64,000 nt of DNA from Cellvibrionaceae bacterium (GTDB taxonomy: Bacteria; Pseudomonadota; Gammaproteobacteria; Pseudomonadales; Cellvibrionaceae), in the NCBI GenBank assembly GCA_028281575.1, contig JANQJP010000090.1:1-64000 (forward strand), given 5' to 3'. Both the position numbers and the translations under genes were made by a program. The notes under the pieces were generated by a model that was given only the letters and a program-made list of their open reading frames with translations, was not told where the DNA came from and made no database searches. Below are positions 39,186 to 56,520 of the stretch, piece after piece. Positions within the stretch are counted from its first letter, which is position 1. Each line of letters starts with the position of its first letter.

Positions 39186-40064
39186 TTGAGGAAGGGAATA
39201 ATTTTGGCTGGTGGCAGTGGGACGCGATTGTATCCGCTGACCATGGTTGTCAGTAAACAGCTAATGCCCGTTTACGACAAACCCATGATTTATTATCCGC
39301 TTGCGACTTTGATGCAGGCAGGGATTCGCGAAATTCTCATCATCAGTACTCCTGTTGAGCTGCCGCGTTTTCAGGCGCTCCTTGGTGACGGTTCGGCCTG
39401 GGGCATCAGCCTTAGCTATGCGGAGCAGGCGCGACCAGAGGGTCTGGCTCAAGCTTTTTTGATAGGCAAGGCATTTTTGGCTGGCTCAGCAGCAGCACTT
39501 GTGCTGGGCGATAACCTCTTTTATGGCCACGACCTTGTTGTTTCGCTTAAACGTGCAAATGAGCGAATGGCAGGTGCTACTGTCTTCGGTTACCATGTTG
39601 CCAATCCGCGCGCCTACGGTGTGATCGATTTTGACGCCGATGGTAAAGCGCTCTCAATTGAAGAAAAACCCGCTGAACCAAAATCAAATTACGCGGTTCC
39701 TGGCTTGTATTTCTTTGATGAGCACGTCTGTGACCTTGCATCTAAGGTCAAACCTTCCCAAAGGGGGGAGTTGGAAATTACTGATGTCATCGAAACCTAT
39801 CTGCACCGCGGTGAGCTGAGGGTTGAAATCATGGGGCGTGGTACGGCATGGCTCGATACTGGTACCCATGACAGCCTGTTGGATGCAGCGCAATTCATAG
39901 AGACCATTGAAAAGCGGCAGGGCCTCAAGGTGAACTGCCCGGAAGAAGTTGCATTTCGCGCTGGGTTTATTAGCGCAGATCAGCTGCGAGAGCTCGCAGC
40001 GCCTTTGCGAAAAAGCGGTTACGGCGAGTACCTGCTCAACCTGCTTGAGACCAAGGTGTTTTAA
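39186..40064 (+). CDS. rmlA: Glucose-1-phosphate thymidylyltransferase
   Basis: This 292-residue enzyme performs the first step of dTDP-L-rhamnose synthesis. The nucleotidyltransferase motif [20 protein letters not shown] (residues about 9-28) and later [14 protein letters not shown] and EEKP are intact. The start is TTG at 39186 with CCGGGGG upstream; no ATG precedes the conserved glycine loop. It overlaps rmlC by one base, and all four rml genes follow in the order A-C-D-B. Confidence 0.97.
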
Positions 40065-40612
40065 TGCAGTTTATCGAAACCGCGATTCCCGACGTAAAAA
40101 TTATAGAAACCAAGGTTTTTGGCGACGCGCGCGGCTTTTTTATGGAGACGTTCCGCACCGAAACCTTTAACAAAAATTGCGGTCAGCGAGATTTTGTACA
40201 AGAAAACCACAGCATGTCTACGGCCGGTATCTTGCGAGGACTGCATTATCAAATTCAGCAAACTCAAGGCAAGCTGGTGCGTGTGACGCGCGGTAGCGTT
40301 TTTGATGTAGCCGTTGATATGCGTCAATCCTCAGTGACGTTCGGCAAATGGGTTGGTGTGGCGTTATCTGCTGAAAACAAGCGCCAGCTCTGGGTACCAG
40401 AAGGGTTTGCACACGGCTTTTATGTCACTAGCGAGGAAGCGGAGTTTGTATATAAGTGCACAGACTACTATGCTCCAGAATTTGAACGGTCTCTGCGCTG
40501 GAATGACCCGAGTGTCGGGGTCGATTGGCCTTTGCTCGATTCTGCCGCTCCCAAACTATCTGCGAAAGATGAGGCAGGTATGGATTGGGAAAGCGCCGAT
40601 AAATTCGATTAG
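40064..40612 (+). CDS. rmlC: dTDP-4-dehydrorhamnose 3,5-epimerase
   Basis: This 182-residue cupin enzyme performs the third step of dTDP-rhamnose synthesis. Conserved stretches include GDARGFFMETF, FVQENHSMSTAGILRGLHYQ (catalytic His region), VAVDMR and PEGFAHGFYV. ATG at 40064 overlaps the rmlA stop (TAATG), so the genes are coupled. Confidence 0.97.
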   Translation: MQFIETAIPDVKIIETKVFGDARGFFMETFRTETFNKNCGQRDFVQENHSMSTAGILRGLHYQIQQTQGKLVRVTRGSVFDVAVDMRQSSVTFGKWVGVALSAENKRQLWVPEGFAHGFYVTSEEAEFVYKCTDYYAPEFERSLRWNDPSVGVDWPLLDSAAPKLSAKDEAGMDWESADKFD

Positions 40613-40624
40613 ATTTCTATTCTG

Positions 40625-41500
40625 ATGAAAATACTTGTTACTGGTGCTTCAGGTCAATTAGCTCGTGAACTTGAATTGACAGTGCCCACCAATGTCGAGC
40701 TCATTAGCGCCTCGAAAAGCGAGTTGGACATTTCCGATTTGGCGAGTGTGCGAGCATACCTGGACCGCTATTCCCCCAACGCGATTATCAATGCTGCTGC
40801 GTATACGGCCGTGGATAAAGCAGAAGAAGATGTGGAACGCGCCTACGCAGTAAATCAAAATGGTCCGGCCAATCTGGCGCAGGCGAGTGCAAATCATTGC
40901 TATGTATTGCATGTATCGACAGATTTTGTTTTTGATGGCACACGAAATACCCCTTACCGGCCTGACGACGCGCCCGCGCCGCAGAGCGTATATGGTAAGA
41001 GCAAGTGTGCTGGAGAAATTAAGTTGGCCGAGCATAAAGCATCCAATTGGGCGATTATTCGCACCTCCTGGGTTTACTCGGTACACGGCAGTAATTTTGT
41101 GAAATCCATGTTGCGCTATATGGCGGAGCGGCCCGAGCTGAATATAGTTGTCGACCAAGTTGGCAGTCCGACGTGGGCGAAAGGCTTGGCGCAGGTTTGC
41201 TGGCAAGCTGTGGCCAACGGCATCCAGGGAATATATCACTGGAGCGATGCCGGTGTAGCGAGTTGGTATGACTTTGCAGAAGTCATACAGTCTTTGGGTT
41301 TGGAATATGGTTTGCTGGACGCAACGGCGAGGCTTAATGCCATTCCAACGGAAGCTTACCCGCTGCCTGCCACTCGACCCGCATACAGCGTGCTGGATAA
41401 GTCGAAGATACTAAAGGCGTTGCCTGAGTTGAAAAACCTGCATTGGCAAAAGCAGCTCAGGTCCATGTTTGACGAAATGAAGAGATTGAGTAATAGCTGA
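40625..41500 (+). CDS. rmlD: dTDP-4-dehydrorhamnose reductase
   Basis: This 291-residue short-chain dehydrogenase performs the last step to dTDP-L-rhamnose. The nucleotide-binding motif is TGASGQLAREL (residues about 6-16). The catalytic YGKSK lies near 122. STDFVFDG and RTSWVYS are typical of RmlD. It is 12 bases after rmlC and overlaps rmlB by one base. Confidence 0.97.
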   Translation: MKILVTGASGQLARELELTVPTNVELISASKSELDISDLASVRAYLDRYSPNAIINAAAYTAVDKAEEDVERAYAVNQNGPANLAQASANHCYVLHVSTDFVFDGTRNTPYRPDDAPAPQSVYGKSKCAGEIKLAEHKASNWAIIRTSWVYSVHGSNFVKSMLRYMAERPELNIVVDQVGSPTWAKGLAQVCWQAVANGIQGIYHWSDAGVASWYDFAEVIQSLGLEYGLLDATARLNAIPTEAYPLPATRPAYSVLDKSKILKALPELKNLHWQKQLRSMFDEMKRLSNS

Positions 41501-42603
41501 TGGCAAGAGTGCTTTTGGTGACCGGCGGTGCGGGTTTTATCGGCGCAAACTTTGTTCACTATTGGTTGGCAAAGTACCCCGAGGACAACGTTGTTGTGCT
41601 TGATGCACTGACATATGCGGGTAACTTAGCGAGTTTGGATGCTGTTAAAGACGCTGCCACTTACACGTTTGTGCGCGGTGACATATGTGATCAGGCGCTG
41701 ATCGAAAAGTTATTGCGTGAGCACGGGGTCGATACCTTGGTGCATTTTGCTGCAGAATCTCACGTTGATCGGTCAATTACGGGTCCAGACGCGTTTATAG
41801 AAACCAACGTTATTGGCACCCACAGTTTGTTGAAGGCCGCGAAAAAGATTTGGTTAGATGAGGGACAGAACCCCGAAAATCACCGCTTTCACCATGTTTC
41901 TACTGACGAAGTTTACGGCACACTCACCGCCGATGATCCGGCGTTCAGTGAGACCACAGCCTACGCCCCGAATTCTCCCTATTCCGCGAGTAAGGCCGCA
42001 TCCGACCACCTGGTCCGAGCCTACCATCATACCTATGGGCTCAAGGTTACGACGTCAAACTGCTCAAATAACTATGGCCCATTTCACTTCCCTGAAAAGT
42101 TGATTCCGCTTGTAATTACGAATATTTTGCATAACAAAGCCCTCCCGATTTATGGTGATGGTCAGCAGGTTCGCGATTGGCTTTATGTTGTCGACCACGC
42201 CCGCGGTATAGATCTCATTCTTGAAAAGGGTGTGATTGGTGAGACCTATAACATTGGTGGAATCAACGAATGGGCGAATATTGATATTGTAAAACTCATA
42301 TGCGAATTGATGGACAAAGCTTTCGCCAGTGACCCTGCGCTTGCACAACGCTTCCCAGCTGCCGTTGCAGCCAATGCGGGCGATTCGCAAAGCCTTATTA
42401 CTTACGTCAAAGACAGGCCCGGTCATGATCGCCGCTATGCTATTGATCCTGCCAAGGCAAATAGTGAACTTGGCTATCAACCGGCGGAGACTTTTGAGAC
42501 AGGCATACGCAAGACGCTGAATTGGTATATAGATAACACTGATTGGTGGGAAAAGGTAATGGATGGTTCGTATCGAAACTGGATTGAAAAGCAATACGGA
42601 TAA
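41500..42603 (+). CDS. rmlB: dTDP-glucose 4,6-dehydratase
   Basis: This 367-residue extended short-chain dehydrogenase performs the second step of dTDP-rhamnose synthesis. Motifs are GGAGFIGANFVHYW (NAD binding), HFAAESHVDRSI, the catalytic YSASKAASDHLV and NCSNNYGPFHFPEKLIPL. It ends the A-C-D-B run. Having rmlB last is less common than the rmlBDAC order. A 134-base gap then separates it from the export genes. Confidence 0.97.
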   Translation: MARVLLVTGGAGFIGANFVHYWLAKYPEDNVVVLDALTYAGNLASLDAVKDAATYTFVRGDICDQALIEKLLREHGVDTLVHFAAESHVDRSITGPDAFIETNVIGTHSLLKAAKKIWLDEGQNPENHRFHHVSTDEVYGTLTADDPAFSETTAYAPNSPYSASKAASDHLVRAYHHTYGLKVTTSNCSNNYGPFHFPEKLIPLVITNILHNKALPIYGDGQQVRDWLYVVDHARGIDLILEKGVIGETYNIGGINEWANIDIVKLICELMDKAFASDPALAQRFPAAVAANAGDSQSLITYVKDRPGHDRRYAIDPAKANSELGYQPAETFETGIRKTLNWYIDNTDWWEKVMDGSYRNWIEKQYG

Positions 42604-42737
42604 TATTGGCGTAGAATCTGCAGGCTCGGTGGATATTTTAATAATTGGGTGTATTGACCGCGTATATAAGTGACTTCGCATAAAAAATACGTCGGTATTC
42701 CTTACATTTGTACAACTTCGTTTTTGAGGACTTGATA

Positions 42738-44931: not shown

Positions 44932-46236
44932 ATGGAATCTAAAAACTATAAAATTGCGCTGCTGGCAGCGTGTGCTTGGTCAGCGCCGTCAATACACGCA
45001 CAAGAGTCCGAAACCGGATTTGATGCATCGATCTTGATTGAAACGCGTTACGATACGAATGCGAATAGAGTTCCTGCTGGAGAGGCGTCGTTAAAAGAAC
45101 GACAAGGTGTTTACACCCTCGATGTTGGCTATTCACATGTATCATCGAACGTTAATTTTGATGGCGGCTATCGGATATTTTATGAGGAATATGCCGAAGA
45201 TAGCCAAGACAGTGACACGAATTTTGCCGGCAATTCGGGAATTGTTCTGGGAACGGAAACATCCCTTTTTGGTTTGACCGCCGAGCATGGCCTCAGCCGA
45301 GTATTGCAGTCCCCTGAGAACGAAGACACTACGGCTAATCTAACGGATAGAGAGGACCTTTCTTTTACGCCTCACCTGCGCTTGCGGCCATCCAAAGTCG
45401 ATTCGATACTCATTTCCACTGCTTATTCTCAGACGGAGTTTGAAGACTTTCAGCGTAATAATACTTCTACGTTAAGCACCAGTGTGCATTGGGAGCATGA
45501 TATTTCCGCGACACAATCTGCGGGTCTTATTCTCACGCAACATGAGACCGAGTTTGATGATAACCCAACACTTGATTACGAATACCGAGCGTTGGGACTC
45601 ACGTATACCAGTGAGCAACGCGCGCTTAGTTATGCCTTGCAAGCTGGAGTCAATGAGATAAAGCCGAAAGAAGCCGGTGATGCTGAGACGAGTGTCTTTT
45701 ATAGTGCAGACATAGAATACGAAACACCCACAACAGTGTTTTTATTTAAATTTAATCAAGAGCTCACCGATACTGGAAATAAAAACAGTTTGGCCGACCC
45801 GACAAGTGAAACTGGCATTGCCGGGGATTTGCAGGTTCAAGACCGAATTGATTGGCGTCTTTATCAGTTTGAGTTAGTGTTGAAATCTGTTTTCGGGTGT
45901 GTGCGATGTGAGGCTAGAGGGTTAGTTGAAAGCCAGGAATTGCAATATCTAAATTTAGATGTAAATGACAATGATGTAATGCAGTTTTTAACCAGCTTCT
46001 CATATCGAATCTCCAGCCAATCTTTAGTGAAGGCGAGTTACCAGGATCGCTCTGTCACCTATGAAAACAACGCTGCGCGAGATGTCGATATTGAACGTTA
46101 TCGCTTTGCCTATGAGCGAAGGGTTGGTCGCGATATAGATATTGCTTTGTTCTATGAATATTATCAGCAGGAACAGGAAGTTCGAGAATATGATTACGAC
46201 CGGTTCGGCGCTTCATTGAGATATGAATTCCGCTGA
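44932..46236 (+). CDS. Outer-membrane beta-barrel protein of EPS locus (TIGR03016-like)
   Basis: This 434-residue exported protein has a signal peptide ending near ACAWSAPSIHA and a long series of alternating amphipathic beta-strands. It ends with an aromatic C-terminus (GASLRYEFR, odd in closing with Arg after Phe). It contains an unusual CVRCEARG pair of cysteines (around residue 324-327). The composition and location resemble the PEP-CTERM-associated outer-membrane protein family, which probably helps polysaccharide cross the outer membrane. The assignment is by style, not by a diagnostic motif. Confidence 0.8.
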   Translation: MESKNYKIALLAACAWSAPSIHAQESETGFDASILIETRYDTNANRVPAGEASLKERQGVYTLDVGYSHVSSNVNFDGGYRIFYEEYAEDSQDSDTNFAGNSGIVLGTETSLFGLTAEHGLSRVLQSPENEDTTANLTDREDLSFTPHLRLRPSKVDSILISTAYSQTEFEDFQRNNTSTLSTSVHWEHDISATQSAGLILTQHETEFDDNPTLDYEYRALGLTYTSEQRALSYALQAGVNEIKPKEAGDAETSVFYSADIEYETPTTVFLFKFNQELTDTGNKNSLADPTSETGIAGDLQVQDRIDWRLYQFELVLKSVFGCVRCEARGLVESQELQYLNLDVNDNDVMQFLTSFSYRISSQSLVKASYQDRSVTYENNAARDVDIERYRFAYERRVGRDIDIALFYEYYQQEQEVREYDYDRFGASLRYEFR

Positions 46237-46262: not shown

Positions 46263-46877
46263 ATGAAGAAAGATTTTTTTTTCATTCTCGCAGTATTTTT
46301 GGTTGGCGTAGTTGGCATTATTTATTCAAAAACTAATCACAACGACGTTCTTACTGAAAAACAAAAAGCGAGTCTTGCAGAGAGTGAAGCGCAAGAAGCT
46401 GGCAAGCCTGAAGGCCGATTGGAAATAAAATATCAATCTGCACGGATTTACTCGCCTCGTTACAGTAGTGACACAGACGGCCTGACTGCGGATATTAAGG
46501 AATATGAGCGCGATCAGAAACTGGATGAGCTTAGCCGAGTCGATTGGGATGCGCCTACCGGCGGTAGTGAAAGTACCACTGCCAGTTGGTCGGAATTATT
46601 TAACGCCTGGTATGTCGTTATGGTGGATAGTGCTTCGGCAGAGACCAACATTGAAGCGGTGACAAGCAGGCGTGAATGTGAACTGATTTTCGAGTTTAAG
46701 GACCAGGATCTGGCGGTGCTAAGGCTTGCGGAAACAGCAGTTGTGGGCCGGGATGAAAAAAGAATATGGATTGAGCCAGAAGTGGGTAATCGTGTAGATA
46801 TTCTTCATCTCTTGTCCCCGGCTGAGCTTAAATCTGCGTCAGAAACACTTAAGCTTTTCTGTTCAAAAAATCAGTAA
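46263..46877 (+). CDS. Unrecognised single-span membrane protein in EPS locus
   Basis: This 204-residue protein has one N-terminal hydrophobic helix (FFFILAVFLVGVVGIIYS, residues 5-22) followed by a polar, acidic periplasmic or cytoplasmic part. I do not recognise the family. There are two cysteines (SRRECEL about 140 and LKLFCSK near the end). It lies 27 bases after the beta-barrel gene and reads in the same direction, so it is likely a locus-specific accessory or anchoring factor. Confidence 0.7.
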   Translation: MKKDFFFILAVFLVGVVGIIYSKTNHNDVLTEKQKASLAESEAQEAGKPEGRLEIKYQSARIYSPRYSSDTDGLTADIKEYERDQKLDELSRVDWDAPTGGSESTTASWSELFNAWYVVMVDSASAETNIEAVTSRRECELIFEFKDQDLAVLRLAETAVVGRDEKRIWIEPEVGNRVDILHLLSPAELKSASETLKLFCSKNQ

Positions 46878-46971: not shown

Positions 46972-48348
46972 ATGCCAAATTTATTTGCTTATATTGTTCT
47001 ACTGGCTTGGCCAATAGTCATTATTGTTTTATTTAACAAGCTGCCTGTTACCAAAGCTGTCATTTGGTCGATGTTGCTTTCGTATATGATATTGCCGGCC
47101 AGAACCCTCATAGACTTGCCGCTGGTTCCCCCGATAGATAAAAAAACTCTGCCGCCAATTGTCATGTTTGCTGTCTGCATAATGAAGTACAAGGATTTTA
47201 AAATAGCACCCTCTGACGACACAGCCAGGCGATTGCTGTTACTGTTTTTAATTACCCCTATTTTTACCATCGCCACCAACGCCGATACGCTCTACTTTGG
47301 CGATGTCATTATTCCTGCACTCACTTATTACGACATGATTTCAATCACGTTTAATAACATCTGTGAGTTTGTGCTTCCATTTCTTATTGGACGCTATTTT
47401 CTCGCTTCGCAAGAAGCGCATAAAGAGTTGTTGATAGCCATCGTCATAGCTTTTTTCTTTTACAGTCTGCCGATACTGTGGGAGATACGGATGAGTCCCC
47501 AGCTGCACGTAAATTTCTATGGGTTTTTCCCGCACGATTTTCGTCAACAAATGCGCGGAGATGGTTTTCGACCCGTCGTCTTCATGGGGCACGGGCTCTT
47601 GGTGGCATTTTTTGTCAGTACAGCTCTGGCCGCAGCCATTGTTTTGCATGCAAAAAAAATAAAACCCATGATCAACATGGGGGCGCTCAAACTTGTCTTT
47701 ATTTCTGTTGTATTGGTTCTGTCCAAAACGGCATCTGCGTTGATATATGGCGTATTTTTCTTTCTTGCGCTGCGTTTTGTCAGTCCCAAGATGCATGTTC
47801 GTATTTCTCTGGCCGTGGCTCTGCTCGTCTTGGCTTTTCCTGTCATGCGTACAGAGAAAATTATTCCGACCGAAGAACTTGTCGCCTACGCCGCGACGAA
47901 AAGTGAAGAGCGTGCCCAGTCGCTTGAATATAGGTTTGATAATGAAGATATTCTTCTCGACAGAGCGAATTTGAGGAAATATTTTGGTTGGGGGACTTGG
48001 GGAAGGAACCGTGTCTATGATCCCAATACTGGTTACGATATTAGTGTGACCGACGGTATTTGGATAATTGTGCTGGGCATGTACGGTTATACGGGCTTTT
48101 TTGCGCTGTTTGGCCTTTATGCTTACGTTTTATTAAAAATGCACTTATCTGTTCGCAAAACCAAAGGCGATGAACTTTCGATTTTTACCTCGGGCATTTG
48201 TTTGATATACGCAGTAAATTTATTTGATTTGCTGCCAAATTCGTCCCTGTCTATGTTAACAATCGCTATGGGAGGGGCGCTATTGGGTTATGCAGAAAGT
48301 CTTAAAGAAAAAAAAGCCGCTGATTTACAGCAACCAGCTTCTCGCTAA
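46972..48348 (+). CDS. Polytopic O-antigen polymerase/ligase-like membrane protein
   Basis: This 458-residue integral membrane protein has about ten hydrophobic helices and a larger soluble loop around residues 300-350 (EERAQSLEYRFDNEDILLDR). The layout resembles Wzy polymerases and WaaL-type ligases, which are highly diverged. In this locus a Wzy-like role, polymerising repeat units in the periplasm, is the likely one. No Wzx flippase candidate was found in the window. Confidence 0.75.
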   Translation: MPNLFAYIVLLAWPIVIIVLFNKLPVTKAVIWSMLLSYMILPARTLIDLPLVPPIDKKTLPPIVMFAVCIMKYKDFKIAPSDDTARRLLLLFLITPIFTIATNADTLYFGDVIIPALTYYDMISITFNNICEFVLPFLIGRYFLASQEAHKELLIAIVIAFFFYSLPILWEIRMSPQLHVNFYGFFPHDFRQQMRGDGFRPVVFMGHGLLVAFFVSTALAAAIVLHAKKIKPMINMGALKLVFISVVLVLSKTASALIYGVFFFLALRFVSPKMHVRISLAVALLVLAFPVMRTEKIIPTEELVAYAATKSEERAQSLEYRFDNEDILLDRANLRKYFGWGTWGRNRVYDPNTGYDISVTDGIWIIVLGMYGYTGFFALFGLYAYVLLKMHLSVRKTKGDELSIFTSGICLIYAVNLFDLLPNSSLSMLTIAMGGALLGYAESLKEKKAADLQQPASR

Positions 48349-48387: not shown

Positions 48388-50166
48388 ATGGCAATTCGCA
48401 ATCTAATTGCTGTGTTTATAGTGGTTTCCCTATCCGCAATTTTTGTTGGTGGATATTTTGCTGATGCAAAAGCTTCCCGTGACCGCCAATTAAATGAAGT
48501 TGGCGCGAGTGATTTACCAGCTGCACAGCGAGACACCGATATAAACGTTCGGTCGGAAATTACTTTTGATGGCCCAGCCAAGCAAGCGTCACTGGGTATA
48601 GGCTTATCGATAGTCAGAGATTGGTCTACGGCGATGCCCTTTATCGATTTGATGAAACAATCACGCAAGTGGCACGATTGGGACAATAAAATACAGGGCT
48701 TTGATGTCGATAGTGATGGTTGGATACGTTCGCTAAAACCGAACCAAACTGCCGGTACAGTTTTTCTCGCTGTTAGCCAACCGGAACAGGTAGCGTATGA
48801 GCGTGTCGTTGTCACCTATGACGGTAAAGGCGCAGTGGAATACGCATGGTCCGCCAAAAAAGTTCCAGAGCTATCTACACATGGCCGCGATGTTGTAAAA
48901 ATTGGTAAAGGTAATCACCTGCTAAAAATTACCAAGACCGACCCACTCGATCCGATAAGAAATATCAAGATTCTAATTGAAGACCATATTGATCTCGCGA
49001 AAACAGGCGAAATATTTAATCCCGATTGGGAGAGCAAAATCGAAGGTTTTTACGCTGTGCGCTTTATGGACTGGATGAATACCAACCAATCTAATCAAGA
49101 GCGCTGGTCAAAACGTCCACGCGTTGAACAGAGGACCTGGGCTATCGACGGTGTGCCAGTGGAAGTCTTGGTTCGGCTGGCGAACAAGCATCGCTTTGTC
49201 CCTTGGTTTAACATACCTCACAAAGCAGATGAGTTGTACATAGAACGCTTCGCACAGATGATAAAACGCGATTTGGACCCCGCCCTGCCGTTTTATATTG
49301 AACATAGTAACGAAGTTTGGAATTGGCAGTACCAGCAGGCGCATGATGCGCGTGATTTGGCCAAGGAGCTTTGGGGAGTCGATGGCGATGGGTTTATGCA
49401 GTGGCACGGCGTGAGAACTGCGCAAATGTGTGAGATTTTTAAGAAGCGCGTTTTTACCGAGCAAACGCATCGGGTGCAATGCGTTGTTGGCGTGCAGACG
49501 GGATGGCATGGGCTAGAGACAGCGGCACTGGAATGTAAGGCATGGCGTAAACTTGGTAATCCGGCTTGCTTTACTTATGGTATCGATTACATTGGGATTA
49601 CGAGTTATTTTAGTGGCGGCTTAAATGGTCCTCATGATCGCAAGGATGAAGCGTATAAGCGAATAATCCTCGATATGGCGTCTAGCGGAGCCAAAGGGCT
49701 GGATAGAGCGTTTAAGCAGTTAAACTCCGGGGGTGAGCTCAGGAGCGTCAAAAAGTACCAACACTTTACGGGTGCTAGTGGCCGTCTATTGGAGCAGCTG
49801 AATTATTGGTCGGGAGTGGGCGATAAATATGGTTTGGGCCTTGTTGCCTACGAAGGAGGTCAACATATTACCGCTAACGCTTACGCCCTGCAGGAAAACG
49901 AGGACGTTATCGATTTTCATATTGCGATTAACCGCGATAAACGAATGAAACCCCTATATACGGATATTCTTCACGCATGGAAGGATGGAGGGGGTGAGCT
50001 GCATATGCTCTTTGATGACTTTAGATCGCCATCCAAATGGGGTGCCTGGGGCGCTTTAGAGCATTTGAATCAAGATTCTTCGCCAAAATATGATGCTTTG
50101 ATTGAGTTTAATCGATCGGTTACTTGTTGGTGGTATGGCTGTGCCATACCCGCTCCTGCAAATTAG
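48388..50166 (+). CDS. Exported glycoside-hydrolase-like protein of EPS locus
   Basis: This 592-residue protein has an N-terminal signal/anchor helix (residues 5-25). A beta-rich domain follows (about 60-220), then a TIM-barrel-like region. The SNEVWN motif places N308-E309 where clan GH-A enzymes keep the acid/base Glu, and LVAYEGGQH provides E489 as a plausible nucleophile. The substrate is unknown. EPS loci often carry such enzymes to trim or process the polymer. It also resembles proteins annotated as cellulose-binding. The gene lies 39 bases after the polymerase-like gene. Confidence 0.72.
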   Translation: MAIRNLIAVFIVVSLSAIFVGGYFADAKASRDRQLNEVGASDLPAAQRDTDINVRSEITFDGPAKQASLGIGLSIVRDWSTAMPFIDLMKQSRKWHDWDNKIQGFDVDSDGWIRSLKPNQTAGTVFLAVSQPEQVAYERVVVTYDGKGAVEYAWSAKKVPELSTHGRDVVKIGKGNHLLKITKTDPLDPIRNIKILIEDHIDLAKTGEIFNPDWESKIEGFYAVRFMDWMNTNQSNQERWSKRPRVEQRTWAIDGVPVEVLVRLANKHRFVPWFNIPHKADELYIERFAQMIKRDLDPALPFYIEHSNEVWNWQYQQAHDARDLAKELWGVDGDGFMQWHGVRTAQMCEIFKKRVFTEQTHRVQCVVGVQTGWHGLETAALECKAWRKLGNPACFTYGIDYIGITSYFSGGLNGPHDRKDEAYKRIILDMASSGAKGLDRAFKQLNSGGELRSVKKYQHFTGASGRLLEQLNYWSGVGDKYGLGLVAYEGGQHITANAYALQENEDVIDFHIAINRDKRMKPLYTDILHAWKDGGGELHMLFDDFRSPSKWGAWGALEHLNQDSSPKYDALIEFNRSVTCWWYGCAIPAPAN

Positions 50167-50233: not shown

Positions 50234-51649
50234 ATGACAATTGCTACACGACGCCGACGCCTTTTGCAAAATCACGACACTCTCGTTCAGTGGGTTCAGC
50301 ACATTTTAAATGCTTTGGTTGTTGTTGGTACGCTCGTTATGTTTGCTTATTGGCGAGACGGTGAAGTTGGACCTCAATATCGCTCGATGCTGGTATTCGC
50401 GGTGTTGGTGATGTTGATTACCTACCATATTTTTGGTGTGCATCGAAAATTCGAAAACTCATTGGGTGGTATTCAGCACCTGGCTCGCGCGTGGGGCGTT
50501 GTGATTATTATTTTGGCCTGGGTGGCATTTTTGACAAAAACATCCGAGCAATATTCACGGCAAATCATCGTCTATTGGGCGATATGGGCGTTTATTGGGC
50601 AGGCAGCAGTGCAGCTCGTGGTATTGAAGGTTTATCGTATTTATAGCACTAAATTTCGTGAGCGAGTGCCAGCAGTGGTTGTCGGGACCGGGTCCGTAGC
50701 AAAGCATCTTGCAAAAAGTATTAGCAAAAATATCTGGTTGCGCGATCAAATGGTTGGCGCAGTTGCCATCGATATGGATACAGAAGTCGATTGGTCAATA
50801 GAAGATATTCCAATTTTAGGTTCCACCAAAGAGTTATTGGAAATTGTTGAGCAGCATGGCATACGCAGAATTTATCTCGCACCAAAATTTGAGCAAAACG
50901 CTCAAATTAAAGGCTTGCAAGAAATGCTTATTGATACCAATATCGACTTGGTCTGGGCCCCGGATATTTTTGAATTCCGCCTGCTAAATCACAGTGTTAG
51001 AGAAGTAGCGGGTGTGCCGTTGATCACTATTAACGAGACGCCACTTATGTCGGGAGGTCCGGCATTTATCAAAATGTTAATGGATCGATCCGTGGCGCTA
51101 TTGCTTATTCTGATGTTTTCGCCAGTGCTTATCGCAGTTGCAATTGCGGTCAAATTTTCCTCCAAGGGGCCGATCATTTTTAAGCAGGTGCGAGACGGTT
51201 GGGACGGCAAGAAGTTTCACGTCTATAAATTCCGCAGTATGTACATGCACCAATCGGAAACCATCGTTAAACAGGCGACCAAGGGTGATCCCAGAATTAC
51301 AAAAGTAGGCGCGTTTATACGCAAGACAAGTTTGGATGAATTACCTCAATTATTTAATATTTTAGAAGGCAGTATGTCATTAGTTGGTCCGCGGCCTCAC
51401 GCTGAATCCCACAACGAATTTTATTCGGATAAAGTAAAAGAATATCTGGCGAGACATCGTATTAAACCGGGTATGACGGGCCTGGCCCAAATCAACGGCT
51501 TTCGGGGAGAAACCGATACGATTGAAGCGATGGAGCGGCGTGTTGAGTTTGACCTGGAATATATTAGTAACTGGTCGCCATTACTGGATATCAAAATACT
51601 TTTTTTGACTCCAATAGCATTGTTCACTAAAAACCAAGGCGCCTACTAG
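50234..51649 (+). CDS. Undecaprenyl-phosphate sugar phosphotransferase (WcaJ/WbaP type)
   Basis: This 471-residue initiating transferase starts lipid-linked repeat-unit assembly. The N-terminal half has four to five membrane helices (about 20-125), then a Rossmann-like region (VVVGTGSVAKHLAKSI). The C-terminal catalytic domain has the fifth helix and KFRSMYMHQSE, TSLDELPQLFNILEG and VGPRPH, then KPGMTGLAQINGFRG. The substrate is probably UDP-glucose or UDP-galactose, by family. It ends the first EPS gene set. Confidence 0.94.
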   Translation: MTIATRRRRLLQNHDTLVQWVQHILNALVVVGTLVMFAYWRDGEVGPQYRSMLVFAVLVMLITYHIFGVHRKFENSLGGIQHLARAWGVVIIILAWVAFLTKTSEQYSRQIIVYWAIWAFIGQAAVQLVVLKVYRIYSTKFRERVPAVVVGTGSVAKHLAKSISKNIWLRDQMVGAVAIDMDTEVDWSIEDIPILGSTKELLEIVEQHGIRRIYLAPKFEQNAQIKGLQEMLIDTNIDLVWAPDIFEFRLLNHSVREVAGVPLITINETPLMSGGPAFIKMLMDRSVALLLILMFSPVLIAVAIAVKFSSKGPIIFKQVRDGWDGKKFHVYKFRSMYMHQSETIVKQATKGDPRITKVGAFIRKTSLDELPQLFNILEGSMSLVGPRPHAESHNEFYSDKVKEYLARHRIKPGMTGLAQINGFRGETDTIEAMERRVEFDLEYISNWSPLLDIKILFLTPIALFTKNQGAY

Positions 51650-52340: not shown

Positions 52341-52535
52341 TTGCCAAAACGCCGATTTATCGCGGGTGCAGAGTGCCCGTCCTGTAAAGCGCTGGATACA
52401 GTTTTTGTTTATTTGGACAGCCGCTTGCCTACATTCGAATGCGCCAAATGCGGCCACAAGGAAGTGCTTGTTCCGTCCGAGACAGTTGATGAAAAACAGG
52501 CAAATGTTGATGTTGTGAAGATAATTGAGCCTTGA
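52341..52535 (+). CDS. yheV: YheV-family putative zinc-ribbon protein
   Basis: This 64-residue protein has a four-cysteine ribbon: CPSC and, 18 residues later, CAKC. The start MPKRRFIAGAECP is typical of the YheV/DUF2387 family of gammaproteobacteria. The start is TTG at 52341 with AGGAG at 52331-52335. Its function is unknown. Confidence 0.88.
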   Translation: MPKRRFIAGAECPSCKALDTVFVYLDSRLPTFECAKCGHKEVLVPSETVDEKQANVDVVKIIEP

Positions 52536-52882: not shown

Positions 52883-53899
52883 ATGGTCAGAGTGGCGCTT
52901 ATTGGTGTGGGTAAGATGGGTTTGTCTCATTTTGCGATTCTTTCAGCCCACCCCGAAGTTGAGATTGCTGCGGTATGTGATAACGCCGCGTATCTCACAT
53001 CCACAATCAGTAAACAGTTGGGCGTTAAAACCTACAAAGATCACAAAAAAATGTTTAAGGAGTGTGAGTTTGATGCGGTTGTTATTTCGACCCCTAATTC
53101 CACACATTACCCGTTGGGCAAGATGGCTCTCGAAAAAGGCATACACGTTTTTCTTGAAAAGCCTCTGTGTTTAGATCCGCAAGAAGGCCAGGAATTGGCG
53201 CGGATTGCCAAGCAACATAACCTGGTTAACCAGGTCGGCTATCACAATCGTTTTATTGGCACGTTTCAGGAAACTCGTCGTTTAGTGAAGGCAGGCGCGA
53301 TTGGCGATGTCCATCATGTGGAGGGAAAGGCCTTTGGTCAGGTGGTGATCAGGCCAAAAACAGGGAAAACTTGGCGCTCAAAGAAATCTGAAGGAGGCGG
53401 CTGCCTTCACGATTACGCCTGCCACGTGCTCGATCTTATGAACTTTATTGTCGGCCCGCCGAACGCGGTCAAATCTGCGCAGCTACAGTCGATTTTTTCG
53501 ACAGATATTGAAGACGCCGTTTACGCGACGATGGACTACCCCTCTGGAGCGACGGGGCTATTGGAAGCTAATTGGAGTGATCAGTCCTACCGCAAGATGA
53601 GCACGACAATTTCGGTATATGGCAAGAAAGGGAAAATTGTTTGTGACCGCCAGGAAATGAAAGTCTACCTCGCTCCAGGTGAAAGTTTTGAATCACTCGG
53701 TGATGGATGGAGCATTAAATACATTACTGAGTTACAGAAACCCGTTAATTTTTATATGCGTGGAGAAGAATATTCTGCGCAGCTCGATCATTTCGTTGAC
53801 CTAATACAAGGGCGAGAGGGAGCGGTTGAAACGGCGTTTGATACAGCAGCGGAAACGGATTTGGTTATCGAGAAAATAGCAGCGTTAGGAAGTAAGTAA
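52883..53899 (+). CDS. Gfo/Idh/MocA-family oxidoreductase
   Basis: This 338-residue NAD(P)-dependent sugar dehydrogenase-like enzyme has the nucleotide-binding loop VALIGVGKMGLSH (residues 3-15), the EKP motif (FLEKPLCLDPQE, about 93), YHNRF (about 122) and a C-terminal alpha/beta domain. Typical family members oxidise or reduce a nucleotide sugar or inositol ring. It is two bases before the next gene and probably supplies or modifies a sugar used by the downstream glycosyltransferase. Its precise substrate is unknown. Confidence 0.9.
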   Translation: MVRVALIGVGKMGLSHFAILSAHPEVEIAAVCDNAAYLTSTISKQLGVKTYKDHKKMFKECEFDAVVISTPNSTHYPLGKMALEKGIHVFLEKPLCLDPQEGQELARIAKQHNLVNQVGYHNRFIGTFQETRRLVKAGAIGDVHHVEGKAFGQVVIRPKTGKTWRSKKSEGGGCLHDYACHVLDLMNFIVGPPNAVKSAQLQSIFSTDIEDAVYATMDYPSGATGLLEANWSDQSYRKMSTTISVYGKKGKIVCDRQEMKVYLAPGESFESLGDGWSIKYITELQKPVNFYMRGEEYSAQLDHFVDLIQGREGAVETAFDTAAETDLVIEKIAALGSK

Positions 53900-53901
53900 T
53901 T

Positions 53902-54771
53902 ATGACTTTGCAACGAGTACTTTTTGGGGATAACCAATTCTTTGGTGTCAACCACATGTCCGAGGAGAAAGCGCGGGCGCTTTCGATGAAGTTTCGAGAT
54001 ACGCAGTCGATTATGCGCGTATTGGACGACGCCTATGATGCTGGCATAAAAGTTTTCATGTGCACGACCTATGATCGTGTCGCCGAAATAGCACAAATAG
54101 TCAAAGACAATCCAGAGCGCTATCCGGACTTTGAATTCTATCCTTGCATGCCCTACGCACATAAATACGCGAACTCTGTCGGCGAGATAGGTATTTTGGA
54201 AACGCTGAAAAAGTTTTCCCCGTCTGGCGTAATAGACACCATGTTCACTGGTGCGTTATCGGTGGTTCGGCAGGATGTGAACAAAATGCTGCAGATGCTG
54301 GTCGATGCTGAAATGAAGCATTTCGAGGGTGTTAAAACACCTGTGATATTCCTGCAGAATGTTATCACTGACCTTATTCTGGGTGTAAAGGGCTACCAGT
54401 TTCTCGGCGAGTTTCATCGGTATATCAAAGAAAAGTATCAAGCCGAAGCCGGTTTTATCACCATGAATTTGCCGCTTTTGCTGCGCGTGCTTAAAGAACA
54501 GGGTATTGAGTCTCCAATTGTGTGTGCGAACATCAATAAGATTGGTTTTCGTATGTGCGGTGGCGTGGAGGAGTACAAAAACGTTATTGCTGAATCTGAT
54601 GCACGCGTTATTGCAATGTCGATATTTGCTTCTGGTGCGATCGCGCCGAGCGAGGCCATTGATTGGGTATGTGGGTTGGAGGGTTTAGACTCTATTGTTT
54701 TTGGCGCCTCCTCGAAAGCCAATATCGTTCAGTCGATGAGCTTGATTCACGAGCGCTGGAACATTGCTTAA
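53902..54771 (+). CDS. Unrecognised TIM-barrel-like protein in sugar cassette
   Basis: I do not recognise this 289-residue protein. It begins QRVLFGDNQFFGVNHMSEEK. The pattern of alternating strands and helices and the C-terminal SIVFGASSKANIVQSM look like an aldo-keto-reductase or aldolase-type TIM barrel, but the usual AKR catalytic tetrad is not evident. There is no signal peptide or membrane helix. The gene is two bases after the oxidoreductase and overlaps the next gene by eight bases, so co-translation and a shared pathway are likely. Confidence 0.75.
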   Translation: MTLQRVLFGDNQFFGVNHMSEEKARALSMKFRDTQSIMRVLDDAYDAGIKVFMCTTYDRVAEIAQIVKDNPERYPDFEFYPCMPYAHKYANSVGEIGILETLKKFSPSGVIDTMFTGALSVVRQDVNKMLQMLVDAEMKHFEGVKTPVIFLQNVITDLILGVKGYQFLGEFHRYIKEKYQAEAGFITMNLPLLLRVLKEQGIESPIVCANINKIGFRMCGGVEEYKNVIAESDARVIAMSIFASGAIAPSEAIDWVCGLEGLDSIVFGASSKANIVQSMSLIHERWNIA

Positions 54772-55249
54772 ACCTCGCGCTTCAAAAAAATTAAAAGTTT
54801 GTGTCGGCGCTTCATCCGGCGGTCATATGACCGAGTTACTCGGTTTATTGAGCACGTCGGAAACCTGGCCCGTTCAGCCCTCAGTTTATGTGACAACACG
54901 CGAAATTTGGGCGCAAAAACTTCGCCAGCGAGGCCCCACTTACGTCGTGGGTGAATGTGATCGAAATAAACCGATAAAAATGCTCATGACTTTCTGGAAG
55001 TCGCTTTTTTTTGTTATCGTTGAGCGCCCCGATGTGGTCATAACCACCGGCTCATTGCCGATCGCAATTGTCTGTGTGATAGCAAAGTTCTTTGGCAGCA
55101 AAACCGTTTGGATAGACAGCGTTGCCCAATTGGACGACCTTTCGATGAGTGGCAGGCTAATGCTAAATCGTGCGGACCTCTTTTTGACTCAGTGGCCCGA
55201 AGTCGCGGAGCGCTATGAAGCTGCCCGCTATGTCGGAGAGTTGCAGTGA
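54764..55249 (+). CDS. Alg14/PssD-like glycosyltransferase subunit
   Basis: This 161-residue protein resembles the membrane-associated half of the bipartite Alg13/Alg14-type transferase. The motif VCVGASSGGHMTELLGLL (residues about 11-28) is the SGGH-x4 acceptor-side signature, and a membrane-dipping hydrophobic stretch lies near 80-110. The TTG start at 54764 overlaps the upstream gene by eight bases and its own end overlaps the next gene by four (GTGA). In PssD/PssE systems the pair adds a uronic acid or hexose to a lipid-linked sugar. Confidence 0.88.
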   Translation: MLKPRASKKLKVCVGASSGGHMTELLGLLSTSETWPVQPSVYVTTREIWAQKLRQRGPTYVVGECDRNKPIKMLMTFWKSLFFVIVERPDVVITTGSLPIAIVCVIAKFFGSKTVWIDSVAQLDDLSMSGRLMLNRADLFLTQWPEVAERYEAARYVGELQ

Positions 55250-55740
55250 TCTTCGTGACATCGGGTAGCATGTTGCCTTTCGATCGTCTGTTTAAGATTG
55301 TTGATTCGGCCGTTGAGTCTGGCCTGATTAAAGATCAAGTCTTTGGCCAAATTGGTGAGGGTAGCTATGAGCCAAGACACTTTGATTACACACGGTTTTT
55401 AGATAAAACAGAATTTGACCAGCGTGTGAAATCGGCCTCATTGGTTATTGGTCACGCGGGCATTGGCGTTATTATTCAAGCCTTAGACTCTAAGACTCCA
55501 CTTTTAGTGTTGGCGCGCAGGTCCGAGTTTGGCGAGCACGTTAACGATCACCAGGTCGCCACGGCCAATAAGTTTGAAGAGCTTGGCCATATTTTGTCGT
55601 TTGACGAAGATTCGCTCGCGACAAAATTGCGTCAGGTTGCTTCCTTTACTCCTGTCCCGAGAACGCCGAATGTAAAAGGCGTGGGAGAAGCGGTCAGCGA
55701 TTTCCTGCAAACGCTAGTGCATGACCCAAGCCGCGCGTAA
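55246..55740 (+). CDS. Alg13/PssE-like glycosyltransferase subunit
   Basis: This 164-residue protein is the nucleotide-sugar-binding half of the split GT28-like transferase. It starts MIFVTSGSMLPFDRLF. The C-domain signature GHAGIGVIIQALDSKTPLLV and later EFGEHVNDHQ match the Alg13/MurG donor-binding region. The GTG start overlaps the Alg14-like stop by four bases, which favours equal production of the two subunits. It completes the four-gene cassette. Confidence 0.9.
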   Translation: MIFVTSGSMLPFDRLFKIVDSAVESGLIKDQVFGQIGEGSYEPRHFDYTRFLDKTEFDQRVKSASLVIGHAGIGVIIQALDSKTPLLVLARRSEFGEHVNDHQVATANKFEELGHILSFDEDSLATKLRQVASFTPVPRTPNVKGVGEAVSDFLQTLVHDPSRA

Positions 55741-55833: not shown

Positions 55834-56520
55834 TTAATGGAACGACGCAGGATCAGGACGGTTTTCCAAGTTCAATTTTATTGACGAATCGCCAGCGAGG
55901 CAGGGCCATTCGTGCAACAAATCATTCCAGCCCTCGGCTTTGTGCAGACGGATATAATCGTTAAACGGCGCATTTTTAATAATGCGGTCGTCTTCGAAGA
56001 ATACCTCGACGGAATAGTGCACAGCGAGATCTAGCTCGTTTGCAAACTCGTCGCCGATAAGGTGGTGCACGACAATGTTGGATAGCGTCATATCCATAGG
56101 CACCAATGGGATACCGCAGTTCATCATGATTCTGTCGTTGACCTCCTCCATCAGGCGATGGGCCAAATACGCCTCGTCGATTAGCGCGTGCAAGCCACCG
56201 TGATTGGATACCAGTTCGGGCGGCGAAGCAAAATAGGACTGAGCGATATCAATCAGCTTCTTGAGAAACTGATATATTCCCGCGCTTTTGGCAAGCTCAA
56301 CCAGGGCTTCAATGAAGTCGGGCACATGGTCAATATACCGGGTGAGGAAGTCTGTGAGGTATTCGGTTTGTCCCTGGGCTGGGAGTTTAATCGAGTGGTG
56401 CAGTCCGTCCAGGCGCGATTCAACGTAATTCTTGAGCGAATGTGTACGTGTTTCTAATTCCCTTGCTCTGTCGATGGATGCGCGTATCTGCAAGTTTACT
56501 TCAAAGCTCATGTCGTGCAT
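55834..56520 (-). CDS. Unrecognised cytoplasmic protein
   Basis: This 228-residue protein has no signal peptide, no membrane helices and no recognisable motif. It is mostly helical and acidic in composition (SFEVNLQIRASIDRARELET; FLTRYIDHVPDFIEALVELA). It is convergent with the Alg13-like gene and divergent from coxB, with no operon partner. It could be a lineage-specific regulator. The start ATG at 56520 has no strong ribosome site and an internal ATG (fourth codon) is possible. Confidence 0.6.
   Translation of the reverse strand: MHDMSFEVNLQIRASIDRARELETRTHSLKNYVESRLDGLHHSIKLPAQGQTEYLTDFLTRYIDHVPDFIEALVELAKSAGIYQFLKKLIDIAQSYFASPPELVSNHGGLHALIDEAYLAHRLMEEVNDRIMMNCGIPLVPMDMTLSNIVVHHLIGDEFANELDLAVHYSVEVFFEDDRIIKNAPFNDYIRLHKAEGWNDLLHEWPCLAGDSSIKLNLENRPDPASFH

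Follow-up and report, generated by a model that had tools for sequence, protein, structure and literature searches.

The window, a stretch of 64,000 nucleotides of the Cellvibrionaceae bacterium contig JANQJP010000090.1, carries four plus-strand ORFs at 52883-55740. The first (52883..53899, 338 aa, ATG start) encodes a Gfo/Idh/MocA dehydrogenase (Pfam PF01408, 1e-28; PF22725, 1.7e-25), denoted Gfo below, and the second (53902..54771, ATG) encodes a 289-aa protein of an unnamed family, denoted U289. The third and fourth encode the halves of a split glycosyltransferase: an Alg14/PssD-like membrane-anchor half (54764..55249, 161 aa, TTG; PF08660, 7.9e-21) and an Alg13/PssE-like catalytic half (55246..55740, 164 aa, GTG; Glyco_tran_28_C PF04101, 6.5e-12). 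A gap of two bases separates the first two genes, and overlaps of eight and four bases follow. The initial annotation had described a four-gene cassette with junctions of +2, -8, and -4, and strands, starts, and spacing all match that description. The ORFs and junctions are thus real, but the conserved unit comprises only the first two genes.

Upstream of the cassette lies an exopolysaccharide region with rmlA, rmlC, rmlD, and rmlB for dTDP-L-rhamnose supply (39186..42603, plus strand, assigned by Pfam), an export gene at 42708, a polymerase-like gene at 46972, and a WcaJ-type undecaprenyl-phosphate glucose phosphotransferase gene (50234..51649, plus strand; TIGR03023, 466 bits, passing the cut-off of 411), which is likely the maker of the lipid-linked primer. 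Three proteins of this region (434, 204, and 592 aa; 44932-46236, 46263-46877, and 48388-50166) have no confident Pfam match. Between the region and the cassette are a carbonic-anhydrase-like gene on the opposite strand and a small plus-strand ORF that, by eye, is of the YheV zinc-ribbon type (52341-52533). The cassette is directly followed by a 228-aa minus-strand protein without a Pfam match (55834-56520), beyond which lie genes that look by eye like those of cytochrome oxidase.

Gfo has both domains, a Rossmann N-terminal and a C-terminal alpha/beta domain (PF01408 and PF22725, both over cut-off), and keeps GxGxxG (G8, G10, and G13). Its catalytic residues are retained: E92-K93-P94, with the EKP lysine, and H181 are invariant in 51 of 51 members, and position 177 is D in 49 and E in two. 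In these domains, in GxGxxG, in EKP, and in the Asp/Glu plus His motif, it resembles Gfo/Idh/MocA oxidoreductases such as DgpA and the inositol and UDP-GlcNAc 3-dehydrogenases; unlike the named enzymes, it belongs to a subfamily of its own that is tied to U289. No named functional subgroup (iolG, UDP-GlcNAc 3-dehydrogenase, and others) accommodates it, every NCBIfam equivalog score being far below cut-off (best score 138 bits, against a cut-off of 355). Its PDB profile matches include DgpA-type glycoside dehydrogenases, inositol dehydrogenases, a glucuronide 3-dehydrogenase, and glucose-fructose oxidoreductase, and its product would be a keto-sugar.

U289 had been described in the initial annotation as TIM-barrel-like and without a nameable family, and both points hold. 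No match was found in Pfam, NCBIfam, PHROG, PADLOC, or PDB sequences. A match to a known family unrelated to sugars, which would have counted against the initial annotation, did not appear. The two AlphaFold models (pLDDT 81 and 83; pTM 0.82 and 0.83), the second built without three plasmid-derived homologues, predict a TIM barrel of eight strands with helices, with low confidence at residues 90-118 (about 29 residues after strand 3) and in parts of 11-30. The top Foldseek matches are aldo-keto reductases (AKRs) or the homologous Kv-beta, as is every VIA match listed (best Z 18-19; best match Z 19.1, rmsd 3.2, 232 residues aligned), and the predicted model has the AKR-type (beta/alpha)8 barrel. 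The resemblance to AKRs such as YghZ/AKR14A1, Kv-beta, and L-galactose dehydrogenase covers residues 1-288 and includes a GASS-type loop after strand 8 and an SxxxxG loop after strand 7; in the profile comparison, the strand-7 loop IAMSIFASGAIA aligned against LAYSPLAFGVLS. Profile matches to AKRs were obtained at two independent places, near the N-terminus (residues 1-52, pairwise E = 6e-5) and near the C-terminus (residues 245-282, pairwise E = 8e-5), these E-values being from single comparisons of shallow profiles. The central part of a full-length profile alignment to AKRs cannot be relied on. By resemblance, U289 appears to keep the cofactor-side loops of AKRs, and to judge by its strand 7 and 8 motifs it may bind NAD(P).

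The catalytic Asp and Tyr of AKRs are, in contrast, replaced, and identity to AKRs is only 8-15%. Because the N-terminal alignment stops at F52, the position of the catalytic Asp falls at M53 (V in three members); that of the catalytic Tyr is D58 (E or A in other members). Near the AKR Lys (strand 3) and His (strand 4), which the profile alignment does not cover, the strand ends of U289 read C/G-M-P-Y-A-H-K and Q-N, the latter being the invariant Q152-N153 at the end of strand 4. Across members as far apart as those of Bacteroides and the window, 39 columns are invariant, mostly directly after strand ends, and they include D10, N11, Q12, N17, H18, P84, Y85, H87, K88, Y89, Q152, N153, N189, N212, M239, G268, and S270; the motifs DNQFxGxNH, PYxHKYA, and QN are almost invariant. 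Active sites of TIM barrels sit just after strand ends, and in the predicted model these columns look like a catalytic site. PF00248 matched neither U289 nor any of 36 members, whereas the same model detected four AKRs in this genome. U289 is thus classed here as AKR-like in predicted fold and probably in origin, yet outside the AKR enzymes proper, given the replaced Asp and Tyr, the invariant set of its own, and the lack of a PF00248 match. With the AKR tetrad apparently missing, U289 may work by something other than hydride transfer.

Relatives of U289 are encoded in at least 226 stretches from many phyla (one scan of a species-genome collection). We fetched the best 80 of these at least 226 loci (54-82% identical to U289), many of which are metagenome-assembled genomes. 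They come from Beta-, Gamma-, and Alphaproteobacteria and from Mycobacterium, Nocardioides, Microbacterium, Acidobacteria, Acidimicrobiia, Myxococcales, Sedimentisphaerales, Prosthecobacter, Rokuibacteriota, and Eisenbacteria records. A member 44% identical to U289 lies on a Bacteroides thetaiotaomicron plasmid (NZ_CP103120.1), and further members lie on Rhodobacterales plasmids; RefSeq labels these plasmid-borne members "hypothetical protein", as it does U289. The distribution is patchy: each of three samples (58, 369, and 398 genomes) contained, apart from the window's own genome, a single relative, which suggests that U289 has spread horizontally. No relatives were found in viral contigs, and a phage or defence origin was rejected on this ground together with the lack of PHROG and PADLOC matches.

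A Gfo gene lies directly upstream of U289 in all 79 fetched loci that reach upstream; the 80th was left out of this count because its contig starts at U289. The arrangement is thus not due to chance. The upstream genes all belong to one subfamily, 45-74% identical to the window's Gfo, and the spacing from the Gfo stop codon to the first U289 motif is 18-152 bases, mostly a few dozen. Reciprocal scans gave the same picture: among 274 genomes of the class, Gfo orthologues occurred just in the window's genome and in one other (G074), as for U289, and among 398 genomes of the phylum both genes occurred only in the window's genome and in one other (G608), about 50 bases apart. Positive genomes are few in these scans, yet the agreement is without exception. 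The distance matrices of the two partners are strongly correlated (Mantel test with two divergent members left out: r = 0.92, 0 of 2000 permutations as high), and part of this correlation stems from shared descent. Divergent pairs also keep the order, both in locus L093 (Gfo and U289 34 and 39% identical, respectively) and on the Bacteroides plasmid (34 and 44%). A fusion of the two genes, sought as proof of joint action, was not found; L043 and L059 contain long ORFs, but these are out-of-frame overextensions. The neighbours of the pair are glycosyltransferase, export, polymerase, and sugar-nucleotide genes. The unknown protein thus has a neighbourhood conserved in other genomes, within polysaccharide clusters, and its constant partner there is the Gfo/Idh/MocA gene.

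The split transferase behaves differently. The check suggested in the initial annotation, whether U289 always co-occurs with the other three genes, came out positive for Gfo (79/79) but negative for Alg14/Alg13, found within 8 kb of the pair in 22 of 80 loci, either downstream (6), upstream (6), or on the opposite strand (10, mycobacterial). The order seen in the window, with Alg14/Alg13 directly after U289, recurs in only five loci besides the window's, namely L004 and those of four Azohydromonas species. When presence of Alg14/Alg13 is mapped on a quick U289 tree, 10 changes are needed, at least four of them forced by well-supported branches. Such varied placement and the roughly 10 changes in presence mean that Alg14/Alg13 is an exchangeable partner of the pair, and a single unit of all four genes, as initially annotated, is rejected because the transferase has been gained or lost repeatedly. 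In its place other loci have a DUF354 protein (18 loci), WecG/TagA (16 loci), or a GT4 or PF13524 transferase. In the window, the Alg14 and GT28 C-terminal domains fall in two adjacent genes (PF08660 and PF04101, over cut-off), and these halves, on separate genes that overlap by four bases, resemble PssD/PssE and Cps14F/Cps14G. In contrast to PssD/PssE proper, they score just under the NCBIfam cut-offs (PssD: 103 bits, cut-off 110; PssE: 96 bits, cut-off 120).

We propose that Gfo and U289 together constitute a two-enzyme keto-sugar module that serves exopolysaccharide synthesis, in which Gfo oxidises a sugar, U289 converts the product, and the adjacent transferase adds the resulting sugar; we put the chances of this reading at about even. 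Its substrate, position, reaction type, and order of steps, as well as cofactor binding by U289, are what we infer from the two families and their surroundings. Gfo would oxidise one hydroxyl, most likely at C3, of a nucleotide sugar with NAD+, and U289 would take the keto intermediate and, probably by non-canonical reduction with the other stereochemistry or by isomerisation, yield an uncommon sugar as the net product. Its putative site would comprise D10-N11-Q12..N17-H18, Y85, H87, K88, Y89, Q152, N153, N189, and N212. The adjacent transferase, here Alg14/Alg13 (PssD/PssE-like), would attach this sugar to undecaprenyl lipid that the WcaJ homologue at 50234 has primed with glucose, so that the pair would make the donor for Alg14/Alg13. 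In characterised PssD/PssE relatives, glucose-PP-undecaprenol is the acceptor that receives the second sugar, and for this reason a PssD/PssE-like pair fits the WcaJ-type gene. We know of no precedent to cite in which two enzymes act in this way as a redox epimerase on nucleotide sugars. The wider claim is more tentative, and we lean slightly against it: that U289 represents a new enzyme family, an AKR barrel in which a new active site has been built (Y85/H87/K88/Y89 after strand 3 and Gln-Asn after strand 4), which together with Gfo gives bacteria of many phyla a rare exopolysaccharide sugar by a route not yet described.

The sugar itself could not be named from neighbouring pathways. Sugar-nucleotide genes near the pair vary between loci (rml; wecB with ugd-like and manC; or none), so that no substrate is fixed. 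That no single sugar-nucleotide pathway adjoins the pair, whereas second-sugar transferases do in many loci, is what would be expected if the pair modified a sugar already on undecaprenyl diphosphate or on the growing repeat, the varied transferases making or extending the lipid-linked acceptor; the PssD/PssE and WecG/TagA families transfer the second sugar onto a primer that is already lipid-linked, and PDB relatives of Gfo include oxidisers of intact glycosides. We regard a lipid-linked substrate as unlikely, although worth weighing, since the transferase families differ and do not require a common acceptor, and both proteins, judging by family and model, look soluble and bear no sign of a lipid site. 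If the pair were instead catabolic, oxidising and cleaving glycosides through a 3-keto intermediate during polymer turnover as in the DgpA/DgpBC or BT_2158 group, one would understand why Gfo scores (far below cut-off) against NCBIfam glycoside 3-dehydrogenases and has DgpA among its PDB matches. By analogy, those keto-glycoside systems also join a Gfo dehydrogenase with a second protein acting on the keto-sugar. Their second protein, in contrast, is a lyase, whereas U289 resembles AKRs and not AP-endonuclease-type lyases, and the loci here are biosynthetic (priming, transfer, export, and polymerase genes), with no recurrent lyase or hydrolase partner found in the neighbourhoods; a catabolic role is very improbable.

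Two further readings concern U289 itself. Its strict one-to-one pairing and strong co-divergence with Gfo, as well as its replaced catalytic Asp and Tyr, would also suit a protein that assists Gfo as a subunit or redox helper (forming a complex, recycling NADH, or releasing product), with a degenerate AKR barrel serving as scaffold. This is decidedly unlikely in our judgement, as the 39 invariant columns, many of them just after strand ends, look catalytic. Least probable of all is a divergent but ordinary aldo-keto reductase with the usual chemistry: the fold and the profile matches at both ends of U289 speak for it, but PF00248 misses U289 where it detects four AKRs of this genome, the Asp position holds Met or Val, the Tyr position holds Asp, Glu, or Ala, and strand 4 ends in the invariant Gln-Asn.

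Returning to the keto-sugar module, its parts are of known kinds, whereas the U289 family, its altered active site, and its fixed pairing are, as far as searched, undescribed in the libraries and open literature; searches of open-licence papers turned up none that describes two such proteins together. With identity of about 40% or more between Bacteroides and marine Proteobacteria, and never found here without Gfo, U289 marks a step that polysaccharide chemistry still lacks. If U289 is an enzyme, there would be a new sugar to seek in exopolysaccharides and an example of an AKR barrel given a new active site. Because it is small, with two proteins, the module is directly testable.

Several neighbours of the pair deserve mention in their own right. 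A DUF354 gene (of unknown function in Pfam) lies directly upstream of Gfo in 18 loci (L022:5819-6841 and 17 others), and the fact that glycosyltransferases fill the same slot elsewhere suggests that the DUF354 proteins at these loci are glycosyltransferases. Another possible sugar-oxidising partner is a GMC oxidoreductase similar to pyranose oxidase, encoded close to the pair in 21 of 81 loci (L005:11617-13152, L004:12793-14268, L063:1152-2867, and others). A PF13524 transferase and an epimerase-like SDR stand beside the pair in L039, L047, L058, L068, L093, and the Bacteroides plasmid. This SDR might be a WbiB-type dTDP-rhamnose 4-epimerase, a point that NCBIfam and PDB searches did not decide. 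The plasmid (L125:829-10023, NZ_CP103120.1) carries a polysaccharide cluster with the pair, PF13524-type transferases, a GNAT gene, and the C-terminal part of the epimerase-like SDR. Finally, eight loci of the Mycobacterium colombiense group (L026, L030, L032, L036, L048, L050, L060, and L076) carry the pair together with sugar phosphotransferase, chain-length-like, polymerase-like, and flippase-like genes, in what looks like a Wzx/Wzy-type exopolysaccharide locus.
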